This document shows positions 52,407 to 59,910 of a stretch of 64,000 nucleotides of DNA, in pieces. The notes under the pieces are model-generated. The model made no database searches, was not told the origin of the DNA, and was given only the letters and a program-made list of their open reading frames with translations. A program made the translations under genes and the position numbers. How positions within the stretch are numbered: the stretch's first letter is position 1; each line of letters starts with the position of its first letter. Source of the DNA: a bacterium (GTDB lineage Bacteria > JAMCPX01); NCBI GenBank assembly GCA_021787665.1, contig JAJYLN010000011.1:8578-72577 (forward strand), given 5' to 3'.

Positions 52407-53417
52407 CTAAAAGGTGTATTGGACACCGAGGATCCAGAAGATATCCATGCGGTAAATCCCGGGCGGAGGGGTTCGGTTGTATTCGATGACGTTTGATACC
52501 TTGAGGGCCAGGTTTCCTCCCAGTGCGGAGGTGAGGCTTGCTGAGTTTCTTGTCGTGTAGTTGTCTTTCTTGTCGACGCGGTAATACATAACGAAATATT
52601 CTGAAAACCGTACCGCCTTGTCAAATGCCCACAAAAAGGTACCGGCAGCACGCACGGTACTCCACTCGCCGTCCTTACCGACAAAGTGGTCCTCCGTGAA
52701 ATACGAGTAACCGGCTTCCACTGAAAGGGTACCCGATGGACCGCTCCATACCTGGTACCCTACGCCGGGTCCTTCCGCCGTGCGCACGCGGAGGTCCCTG
52801 AATTTATCCGTCAGCATCTCCATGTCGGCATATCCGTAAAAGGCATCCGTAAAAAGGTGCTCATATTTTGCCGAGCCATAGGCATTGCGGGCAGACATGA
52901 TCCCCGCGTTCTGAGCATAGTTATAGAGGAAACGGAGGCCGGCATTGTCCCATGACGACTTCCAGAAGACGTCTGCCCCTATGGATGCACTCAGGACATG
53001 GGCATTGCCGGCTTGCGTATTGGCACCGGCTGTGAGCGATCCGGACACCGAGCTCGGCGGCGGATTCAATGCCCGAATCTGATTCCAGTTCACCGTACCG
53101 GCGGATGCACCCTGCCCGGTTTGGATCTCGAGATTCCCGTTATTCCCCAGGGCAAATTTCCCTTTGATCGATGTGCCGTTTTTCAGTTGCACGTTCAGAG
53201 GTTTCTCCATGGTGATCTTTTTGATTGTATTTTTCTTTACGGTAATCGGCGACGAATAGTCCGTGGATATGACGAGTGTTCCTTTGCTCCCCCCGGTAAT
53301 TTTCCCGGTGATCGTATCGCCGTTCTTGAGCACAACGGTATCTGCGCACACGGCCTGCGCACTCAAAAGAACCGCCGCAACAATGCTTCCATAAAATCCT
53401 AACAATCGTTTTGACAT
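52407..53417 (-). CDS. DUF481 (YdiY-like) outer-membrane protein
   Basis: The 336-residue product has a Sec signal peptide (to about residue 26, ending in QAVCA), a small N-terminal beta domain repeated twice (VVLKNGDTITGKITGG and NVQLKNGTSIKGKFALG), then a beta-barrel with strands typical of DUF481 (AGLRFLYNYAQNAG, AEGPGVGYQVWSGPSGTLSVE) ending in WILGVQYTF with the terminal Phe common to barrel proteins. E. coli YdiY is acid/salt-related. Confidence 0.88.
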   Translation of the reverse strand: MSKRLLGFYGSIVAAVLLSAQAVCADTVVLKNGDTITGKITGGSKGTLVISTDYSSPITVKKNTIKKITMEKPLNVQLKNGTSIKGKFALGNNGNLEIQTGQGASAGTVNWNQIRALNPPPSSVSGSLTAGANTQAGNAHVLSASIGADVFWKSSWDNAGLRFLYNYAQNAGIMSARNAYGSAKYEHLFTDAFYGYADMEMLTDKFRDLRVRTAEGPGVGYQVWSGPSGTLSVEAGYSYFTEDHFVGKDGEWSTVRAAGTFLWAFDKAVRFSEYFVMYYRVDKKDNYTTRNSASLTSALGGNLALKVSNVIEYNRTPPPGIYRMDIFWILGVQYTF

Positions 53418-53484: not shown

Positions 53485-55846
<2,362 letters not shown>

Positions 55847-55850
<4 letters not shown>

Positions 55851-56947
55851 ATACTGCGTACACCTGCGCCCGGGTCTCCCTGCGGGCCATCACGAAGAAC
55901 CTCGGGGTAATACGGAAGCGCCTCGGCCGATCAGGCCGTGCCGGTGCAGCGGTCATGGCCGTGGTGAAGTCCGATGCTTATGGACACGGGATGGTCCCGG
56001 TGTCCGTTGCGCTCGAGGAGGCTGGCATAGATGCGCTCGGCGTAGCGTTCGTCCACGAGGGCGTACAGTTGCGGGACGCCGGCATCAGGGTGCCGATCTA
56101 TATACTATCCGGCGTACAGCACGGGGAAGAGGGGGCCGTGATAGACAAGGGACTAAGCCCGCTCCTGTGCAGCAGGGAGCAGTTCAAGGCCCTGAATAGG
56201 GCAGCGGAGAAGAGGAGGACGAGAATCGACGTCCACGTGAAGATCGATACCGGCATGGGAAGACTCGGGTTCGTGTACGATGAAGCGGAGTTGCTGGCCG
56301 GGTCCCTGGCCTGCTACAGCAATGTCCGCGTTACCGGCGTCGCAACGCACCTGTCGGACGCCGCGGGGTCGGCATACTACACCGGGCTGCAAATCAGGCG
56401 CTTCGAGGGAGCCAGGAGATCGCTGGAATCTTCCCTGTCCCGGCGTCTCACGGCGCACGTTGCGAACACGGTCGCCCTGTTCAGCTACCCGGCTTCACAC
56501 TTCGATATGGTGCGCCCCGGCATAGGTCTCTACGGCTATGGTGGAAAGGGGCTGAGCCCGGCCATGAGCGTCTTCTCGCATCTGATCTCCGTAAAGACCC
56601 TCAGGAAAGGCACCTGGGTAAGCTACGGAAGGACCCACAGGCTGAAGAGGGACACCAGGGTAGGTGTCATACCGATGGGCTATGCAGACGGCTACTCGCG
56701 TATGCTTTCGAACAGGGGTTTTGTTGGCATCAAGGGCAAAAAGGTATACAGTATAGGCATGGTCACGATGAACCACATCATGGTCGATATCAACGACGTG
56801 GACGCGCACGTAGGGGACGGGGTACTCGTCATCGGAGAAGACCGCGACATGCGCATCGGCGCCGACGAGATCGCCTCACGGGGCTCGACGATAAGTTACG
56901 AGATCCTCTGCGGCATGGGCCTGAACGTCAGACGGGTCTACGACTGA
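55847..56947 (+). CDS. alr: Alanine racemase
   Basis: The PLP enzyme makes D-alanine for peptidoglycan. The ATG at 55847 overlaps the EnvC stop by 4 bases. The 366-residue product has PLP Lys in VMAVVKSDAYGHG, the central TIM-barrel motifs HVKIDTGMGRLGF and VRPGIGLYGYG, and the catalytic Tyr region SYGRTHR with GVIPMGYADGYSR. Length is normal. It links wall synthesis to the preceding EnvC gene. Confidence 0.97.
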
Positions 56948-56948
56948 T

Positions 56949-57731
56949 ATGGCCTTCGAGCCGCTCAAGATATTCGAATACATAGGGGAGAGGTTTACCG
57001 CGTTCCTCGAAGAGCTCGGCGGCATATGTACTACCTTCGTGCAGTCCGTAGTGCTGCTCTTCATGCCCCCCCTCAGGTTAGACCTGTTTCTGAAGCAGAT
57101 GGAATTCATCGGCGTCGAATCGAGCTTCATCGTGCTCCTCACCGGCGCCTTCACCGGCATGGTCTTCGCCCTCCAGACGTCGTACGCATTCAGGCTCTTC
57201 GGAGCGCAGAACCTTATCGGGCCCTCCGTGGCGCTGTCTCTCGCGCGAGAGCTCGGTCCGGTGCTCAGTGGCCTCATGGTAACCGGGAGGGTGGGGTCCG
57301 CCATGGCGGCCGAGCTCGGGACGATGAAGGTAACCGAGCAGATAGACGCTCTCTCCACGATGGGTATAAACCCGGTACAGTACCTCGTCACACCCAGGGT
57401 GGTATCATCCATTCTCATGCTCCCCATGCTCACGGTACTGTTCGATTTTATCGGAATCGTGGGCAGCTATTTCATGGCCGTGTATCTGCTCGGACTGAAC
57501 GGCGAGAGGTTCGTGAACGACACCATCTATATGGTAGACCTCAAGGATGTGTACATCGGACTCCTGAAGGCAGCGGTGTTCGGCGCCCTCATCGCCGTCG
57601 TGGGGTGCTACAAAGGGTACTATGCAGAAAAGGGGGCGGAAGGGGTCGGCAAAGCCGCCACACAGGCCGTCGTCATCACGTCCGTGTCCATCCTGATAGC
57701 GGACTATTTCCTGACCGCCATGCTGTTCTGA
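56949..57731 (+). CDS. mlaE: MlaE-type ABC permease
   Basis: The 260-residue product is a five- to six-helix MlaE permease: FIGVESSFIVLLTGAFTGMV, LGPVLSGLMVTGRVGSAMAAELGTMKVTEQIDAL and a C-terminal helix VVITSVSILIADYFLTAML. It couples the ATPase MlaF to the lipid-binding MlaD. It begins two bases after the alr stop. The gene order mlaE-mlaF-mlaD follows. No mlaB is present. Confidence 0.97.
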   Translation: MAFEPLKIFEYIGERFTAFLEELGGICTTFVQSVVLLFMPPLRLDLFLKQMEFIGVESSFIVLLTGAFTGMVFALQTSYAFRLFGAQNLIGPSVALSLARELGPVLSGLMVTGRVGSAMAAELGTMKVTEQIDALSTMGINPVQYLVTPRVVSSILMLPMLTVLFDFIGIVGSYFMAVYLLGLNGERFVNDTIYMVDLKDVYIGLLKAAVFGALIAVVGCYKGYYAEKGAEGVGKAATQAVVITSVSILIADYFLTAMLF

Positions 57732-57734
57732 GCC

Positions 57735-58487
57735 ATGCAGATTGACATCAGGGGACTGAGGAAATCGTTCGGCGACCACGTCGTGCTCGACGGCATCGAT
57801 ATGACCATAGAGGACGGCAAGACGACCGTGATCCTCGGCCAAACAGGCTGCGGAAAGAGCGTGTTGATAAAGCACATCATAGGCCTGCTGAAGCCGGATG
57901 CCGGACAAATCGTCGTGAACGGCATCGATATAACAAGGCTGAGGCGGAGCGAGCTCACGGAAATCCTCAAGAACTTCGGCGTATTGTTCCAGAGTGCCGC
58001 GCTGTTCGACTCGATGACCGTGGGTGAGAACGTCGCTTTTCCGCTCATCGAGCACACCGACCTGCCGCACGCGAAGATCGTGGGCATCGTCGAGGAGAAG
58101 CTCGCGATCGTAGGGCTCAAGGGGGTCGAATCGCTGTACCCATCGGAGCTGAGCGGTGGCATGAAGAAGAGGGTAGGGCTCGCGAGGGCCATAGCGCTCG
58201 AGCCGAAGGTCCTCATCTTCGACGAGCCGACGACCGGGCTCGACCCGGTGATGAGCGATACGATCGACAATCTTATTATAGATACCCAAAAGCGCCTGGG
58301 GGTGACGAGCATCGTGATAAGCCACGACATTCCCGGCACGTTCAAGATAGCCCACTGGATTGCAATGCTTTACAAAGGTAAAGTTGTCCTATATGGTAAT
58401 CCTGATGATTTCAAGAATACGAAGGACCCGATCGTCAGGCAGTTCCTTGAAAGAAAGGCGGAAGGCCCCCTGCAGGTAGAGGTATGA
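57735..58487 (+). CDS. mlaF: MlaF-type ABC ATPase
   Basis: The 250-residue ATPase has Walker A GQTGCGKSVLIKH, Q-loop LFQSAALFDSMTVGENVAFP, signature ELSGGMKKRVGLARA and Walker B LIFDEPTTGLDPVMSD. It is the cytoplasmic motor of the Mla lipid transporter. It follows mlaE by 3 bases and precedes mlaD by 1. Confidence 0.97.
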   Translation: MQIDIRGLRKSFGDHVVLDGIDMTIEDGKTTVILGQTGCGKSVLIKHIIGLLKPDAGQIVVNGIDITRLRRSELTEILKNFGVLFQSAALFDSMTVGENVAFPLIEHTDLPHAKIVGIVEEKLAIVGLKGVESLYPSELSGGMKKRVGLARAIALEPKVLIFDEPTTGLDPVMSDTIDNLIIDTQKRLGVTSIVISHDIPGTFKIAHWIAMLYKGKVVLYGNPDDFKNTKDPIVRQFLERKAEGPLQVEV

Positions 58488-58488
58488 C

Positions 58489-59910
58489 ATGAACAAGGGT
58501 ATCCCCACAAACGCGAAGATCGGGATATTCGTGGCCTTCGTCCTGGTACTCCTCTTCTGGATCACCTTCAGGATCAGCGGTGGTTCCCTGTTCGGCAGAG
58601 TGCAGGGCTATACGATAACGGCCGTCTTCGACGATGCACAGGGCCTGAATACGAAGACCGGCGTTTTTATAGCAGGTATAAAGGTCGGGGACATCGATAG
58701 CATCAAGCTGCACGACGACAAAGCGCTCGTAACACTGCGGATATGGCCGGGGGTGGTCATAGGGGAGAATGCAAAGGCGATCATCAGGAGCAAGGGGCTG
58801 CTCGGGGAGAAGTACATAGACATCGTCCCGGGCAGCGAGGCCGCGGCGCCCCTCTCGCCCGGGGAACGGATGCTATTTACGGAATCGCCCCCGGACTTTG
58901 CAGAGCTCATGGACAGACTCGATGCAATAACCGACAATATAAAGTCGATTACGCAAAGCCTCAATGAGGTGTTCGGCGGCCCGAAGGGCGTAGAGACCAT
59001 CAAGGATTTGGTCGATAACCTCAACAAGACGGTCAAACACATGGATCGCCTCGTGACCAGCACCAACGCAAACCTCAACAGCACATTCGATTCAGTCAAC
59101 GCGTTCGCAAAGGTTCTGAAGGAACAGGGGCCGGGGCTCCTTACCAGCCTCGCACAGGTCTCCGGAGAACTCCATACGATCATCGCGGCCAATAAGAAGT
59201 CCATCGACAAAACGATATCCAGTATCAGCGATGCAAGCGAGAAGCTGGACAGCACGCTTGCAAATCTTCAGGAGATCTCGGACGAAATCAAGGAGGGCAA
59301 GGGCACGGTCGGGAAACTGCTGACCGACGAGAAGACGCAGAAGGAAGTATCGAGGGCCATCAGCGGTCTCAGCAGTATGATCGGGGGGACGTCCCGTTTC
59401 AGGACGATCATAGACTACAGGAGCGAATATCAGTTTGCCTACAAGGACGTGAAAAGCTACCTCAACCTGAGGCTCCAGCCCACCTGGGACAAGTACTACT
59501 TGCTGGGCATTGTAGACGACCCGACGGTATACCCCCCTACCACGACGACCAACAACTCGTTGTCACAGCTCAAGATAAACGCTGAGATAGCCAAACGCAT
59601 CTCCTATTTCACGTTCCGGGGCGGTATCATAGAATCCACCGGCGGCATCGGCGTAGACATAGGACCGCCCGGCGGGCATATCAAGCTCAGCGCCGATCTG
59701 TTCAACTTCAACGAGCGGCCAAACCCGGAACTGAAGACTATGCTGAGCATATCGATCCTCCGGTACTTCCTGCTTTCCGGCGGCATGACCGACATCCTGA
59801 ACAGTGCCACCAGGACATGGTTCTTCGGACTGGGGCTCAGCTTCAATGACGAGGATCTGAAGAGCGTGTTCGGGCTTGCGGCAAGCGCGGCGTCGGCAAA
59901 CAGCAAGTAA
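58489..59910 (+). CDS. mlaD: MlaD/MCE protein with long helical needle and putative C-terminal barrel
   Basis: The 473-residue product has an N-terminal transmembrane helix (residues about 10-28), one MCE domain (about 38-115: YTITAVFDDAQGLNTKTGVF, AIIRSKGLLGEKYIDI), a helical segment of about 170 residues (heptad-rich, FAELMDRLDAITDNIKSITQ to about 300), and then 170 residues that alternate polar and hydrophobic residues (FRTIIDYRSEYQFA, SYLNLRLQPTWDKYYLLG, GHIKLSADLFNFN, TRTWFFGLGLSFNDEDL). The ending looks like a beta-barrel. E. coli MlaD is only about 183 residues. A one-protein trans-envelope bridge of this kind is reported in Veillonella parvula. Confidence 0.88.
   Translation: MNKGIPTNAKIGIFVAFVLVLLFWITFRISGGSLFGRVQGYTITAVFDDAQGLNTKTGVFIAGIKVGDIDSIKLHDDKALVTLRIWPGVVIGENAKAIIRSKGLLGEKYIDIVPGSEAAAPLSPGERMLFTESPPDFAELMDRLDAITDNIKSITQSLNEVFGGPKGVETIKDLVDNLNKTVKHMDRLVTSTNANLNSTFDSVNAFAKVLKEQGPGLLTSLAQVSGELHTIIAANKKSIDKTISSISDASEKLDSTLANLQEISDEIKEGKGTVGKLLTDEKTQKEVSRAISGLSSMIGGTSRFRTIIDYRSEYQFAYKDVKSYLNLRLQPTWDKYYLLGIVDDPTVYPPTTTTNNSLSQLKINAEIAKRISYFTFRGGIIESTGGIGVDIGPPGGHIKLSADLFNFNERPNPELKTMLSISILRYFLLSGGMTDILNSATRTWFFGLGLSFNDEDLKSVFGLAASAASANSK

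Follow-up and report, generated by a model that had tools for sequence, protein, structure and literature searches.

A three-gene mlaEFD operon encoding a long MlaD with a predicted C-terminal outer-membrane-type β-barrel in an uncultured bacterial lineage

According to our analysis, the window (the whole stretch of 64,000 nucleotides that was analysed) carries an mlaEFD operon that is a clear further example, in an uncultured lineage, of a layout already described in Veillonella parvula and widespread among diderms (Grasekamp et al., 2023; PMC10665443). We put at roughly 80% the probability that it encodes a Veillonella-type MlaEFD system, in which a hexameric MlaD bridge is anchored by outer-membrane barrels and MlaA and MlaC are unneeded. 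In such a system MlaE and MlaF would form the inner-membrane permease and its ATPase, while six MlaD chains would place an MCE ring on MlaE and span the periplasm with a long tube of helices, each chain ending in a small ten-stranded barrel that would anchor the tip of the tube in the outer membrane. Phospholipid would pass between the membranes through this tube, most likely from the outer to the inner one, and it is this passage through MlaD that, in our proposal, would make the two other proteins dispensable.

Open reading frame calling and profile scans placed the three genes next to each other on the forward strand, with a spacing of 1–3 bases. The first, mlaE (56949–57731), encodes a permease of 260 amino acids (PF02405, 2.3e-83; TIGR00056 above its cut-off), and the second, mlaF (57735–58487), an ABC ATPase of 250 amino acids (PF00005, 3.2e-33) whose top NCBIfam match was the MlaF model PRK11831 (1.3e-69, under its curated cut-off). 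They are followed by the long form of mlaD (58489–59910; PF02470, 4.2e-19). Upstream of mlaE lies the alanine racemase gene alr (55841–56947, forward strand; PF01168/PF00842), which probably belongs to the same operon, and before it a gene for an M23 peptidase (54660–55850). Genes for a phosphoribosyltransferase, an MGS-like protein, a histidine kinase and a sigma-54 response regulator are located 3′ of mlaD. The order alr-mlaE-mlaF-mlaD is common to the family of the window and several loci of Myxococcota and Deltaproteobacteria (the loci outside the family are L057, L059, L061, L062, L064, L066, L073 and L075), and the P-II/M23/alr/mlaEFD surroundings are mostly retained among the family members. 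On the reverse strand at 52407–53417, the window also encodes a DUF481 protein (PF04338, 4.8e-33), which is probably an outer-membrane protein and would fit a diderm envelope.

The original prediction, made from the letters of the window, had described an unusually long MlaD with a heptad-rich helix behind its MCE domain, and both features were recovered in the 473-residue product. A predicted inner-membrane helix (residues 7–29; 58507–58575), with the peak hydropathy window beginning at residue 11, precedes the only stretch matched by PF02470, the MCE domain (residues 39–115; 58603–58833). This domain was modelled at a pLDDT of about 90, found solved MlaD structures in Foldseek and deviated by 1.1–1.4 Å rmsd from the E. 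coli MCE core; beyond it the protein continues for about 360 residues. The region between residues 137 and 297 (58897–59379) is predicted to be helical and aligned with the needle chains of mycobacterial Mce1 both in the PDB sequence search and in Foldseek. In the full-length AlphaFold2 model, which was built from 26 homologues, these helices have low confidence (pLDDT mostly 30–45). The hydrophobicity of heptad positions a and d exceeded that of shuffled sequences in residues 137–187 (p 0.002) and 200–268 (p 0.007). As one continuous extended helix, these approximately 160 residues would measure about 24 nm, which agrees, as a matter of arithmetic only, with the periplasm of V. parvula, measured at 24.2 nm (Grasekamp et al., 2023; PMC10665443).

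The C-terminal part of the protein, in which amphipathic strands resembling a barrel had been noticed, is supported by the structure predictions as a ten-stranded barrel of the outer-membrane type. Ten strands spanning residues 305–453 (59401–59847, forward strand) appeared in both AlphaFold2 predictions, so that the last 170 or so residues, for which a soluble or disordered structure had been considered, are modelled as a barrel with high confidence. The strands had a pLDDT of about 90 in the full-length model. Comparison of that model with the PDB gave mainly MCE matches, and the C-terminal domain was therefore folded alone; from 52 sequences, this second model had strands mostly at a pLDDT of 90 or above (mean 82.8, pTM 0.73), followed by a helix of low confidence. 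Profile searches of the C-terminal domain, suggested along with the original prediction, revealed no convincing relative in Pfam or among PDB sequence profiles, and the barrel assignment is consequently based on structure comparison and on the sequence pattern. In Foldseek no match reached E < 0.001, and the list consisted mainly of outer-membrane barrels (OprF, OmpA, Ail, NspA and OmpLA). The highest VIA-align matches were OpcA (Z 15.3; 140 residues aligned, 3.0 Å), the designed barrel TMB10_163 (Z 14.2; 133 residues, 2.6 Å) and Pla (Z 13.8; 139 residues, 4.0 Å), well above the best Z of 7–8 that, according to the tool, is typical of models without a clear match. Both OpcA and Pla are ten-stranded outer-membrane barrels. 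Polar and apolar residues alternate along the strands far more regularly than expected (sum over ten strands 35.4, versus 16.5 ± 3.8 for shuffles; p ~5e-5), a test that by itself does not tell which face of the barrel points outward. The alternation was found at p < 0.01 in all 52 homologues, a count that depends on the query model, from which the homologue strands were projected. Finally, the last strand ends in GLGLSF (residues 447–452; 59827–59844, forward strand), which resembles a BAM β-signal, and the corresponding pattern G..h.[FYW] closes the last strand in 50 of the 52 homologous domains.

What such a barrel would do can be read in more than one way. According to one reading, a variant of our main explanation and compatible with it, the barrels serve as anchors only, and lipid enters the open tip of the tube from the outer membrane's inner leaflet without any role of the barrel in transport. 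Grasekamp et al. (2023; PMC10665443) regarded the barrel as too narrow for a phospholipid, and complete barrels occur in only about 10% of MlaD sequences, both of which favor an anchor. On the other side, the barrel alignment (A3) contains four invariant glycines and eight more positions conserved at 90% or above, including R, D and K, and such conservation across lineages may mean more than anchoring. We consider the chances of the anchor-only reading to be about even. The stronger proposal, that lipid transfer uses the barrel as a conserved functional element and that a lineage with no other MCE system detected by profiles depends on it alone, seems doubtful to us.

Another explanation would leave the outer membrane to a different partner: MlaD would be a long MCE needle ending in a soluble periplasmic barrel, similar to a lipocalin or a fatty-acid-binding protein, that passes the lipid on. 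Soluble barrels are present among the VIA-align matches (CpeS lyase, Z 8.6; Ycf58, Z 8.1; NanoLuc, Z 7.4), as is the chloroplast protein BFA1 with a higher Z of 11.7, and the shortness of the strands (8–13 residues), like the indifference of the alternation test to the outward face, also leaves room for this explanation. Nevertheless, the top structural matches and most of the 50 VIA-align matches listed are outer-membrane barrels, the β-signal-like ending is nearly universal among the homologues, and a domain with this architecture in V. parvula was recovered in the outer-membrane fraction (Grasekamp et al., 2023; PMC10665443). Taken together, this makes a soluble barrel unlikely, and we retain an outer-membrane barrel as the predicted fold.

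The absence of mlaA, mlaB and mlaC, noted earlier for the operon, extends to the genome. Profile searches of the 92.7% complete genome of the window found no MlaA, MlaB or MlaC; the MlaE and the MlaD of the operon were the only MlaE and the only MCE protein detected, and TamB was present. Neither MlaA nor MlaC was found in any of nine family genomes. That the MlaC search is able to see MlaC follows from its detection in 18 of 98 genomes, in 15 of them above the curated cut-off. The incompleteness of the assembly might suggest that MlaA and MlaC are present and were missed, but we consider this highly improbable, given this sensitivity and the nine family genomes, one of which is 99% complete.

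On every point compared, the operon fits the Veillonella-type description. Both systems consist of the three genes mlaEFD without MlaA or MlaC, both genomes have TamB, and the two MlaD proteins, compared by architecture, share a transmembrane helix, one MCE domain, a long helical stretch and, at the C-terminus, a barrel of ten strands. The differences concern the lineage, the length of MlaD (473 amino acids versus 419 in V. parvula) and the neighbors of the operon, which are alr here and tolC/tamB there. In V. parvula, mutants have lipid-asymmetry phenotypes that are suppressed by tamB, and TamB acts as a counter-pathway (Grasekamp et al., 2023; PMC10665443). Compared with the MlaFEDB, MlaC and MlaA system of E. 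coli and Acinetobacter, only MlaE, MlaF and the MCE domain are shared; MlaA, MlaB and MlaC are absent, MlaD has 473 instead of 183 amino acids, and it missed the equivalog cut-off of TIGR04430 for the E. coli-type protein (95.5 versus 135 bits). The structures of mycobacterial Mce1 (8fed, 8fee and 8fef) were the best matches of MlaD in both the PDB sequence and the Foldseek searches, and they share the arrangement of an MCE ring with a long needle of helices behind it. In Mce1, however, different chains assemble into a heterohexamer and each contributes a single strand to one small barrel common to all, whereas here a single mlaD gene is predicted to provide each chain with a ten-stranded barrel of its own. 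PqiB and LetB (YebT) are likewise MCE proteins that cross the periplasm, but they have several MCE domains in place of the one in this MlaD.

The original prediction had also seen in this operon an ancestral-looking bridge in another diderm lineage. Its likeness to the V. parvula layout was borne out, and the operon is a new example of that layout, with the physical bridge standing as a prediction; the occurrence in a further lineage is not news, as barrel-bearing elongated MlaD proteins were already known to be widely distributed in diderms, and the ancestral status of the long form is an inference of Grasekamp et al. (2023; PMC10665443). This case leaves the 2023 picture unchanged. It adds a clean three-component trans-envelope Mla system, with a single MCE protein and without MlaA and MlaC, from an uncultured lineage, and supplies a deep barrel-domain alignment whose conserved residues could serve as targets for mutation.

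The lineage itself looks isolated and uncultured. Among the genomes compared, none had a kinship between “same family” and “same domain,” and for this reason the family appears isolated; it is probably the sole family of its phylum in this set. Its public records include the isolates WY2, DBS2-1, DX4, FK4 and clean1809. The MlaD proteins of the family members are 57–70% identical, and the barrel is likewise present in them. A genome scan with the single protein of the window revealed no relative, whereas the family alignment did find relatives. Outside the family, matches extend into the barrel in about 20 of about 90 sampled unrelated genomes, as counted from the match ends. A scan of named records yielded mostly Deltaproteobacteria and Myxococcota at 26–32% identity, but because its seeds were two short motifs it is biased and uninformative on the full range.

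The possibility that a barrel-bearing MlaD excludes MlaC was considered and rejected, since at least six genomes (G022, G035, G040, G050, G055 and G087) have both. The barrel alone thus does not imply replacement of MlaC.

In many records of Myxococcota and Deltaproteobacteria, no mlaE or mlaF was detected near the barrel mlaD within flanks of up to 6 kb on either side, less at contig ends (loci L040, L042–L050, L053–L056, L058, L079–L082 and L087). Where the genomes of these loci could be searched, MlaE was located at another site, in several of them as alr-mlaE-mlaF, and the approximately 0.7 kb behind mlaF revealed no mlaD. In several myxobacterial genomes, the barrel mlaD and the genes of its transporter seem to lie apart.

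Within the family, the MAG WY2.bin9 contains a second MlaD (L037:4184–6509) that is 57–58% identical to that of the window. Its gene has no adjoining mlaEF and follows a fragment of a FadL/TodX-type outer-membrane protein; it could represent either a paralogue or contamination.
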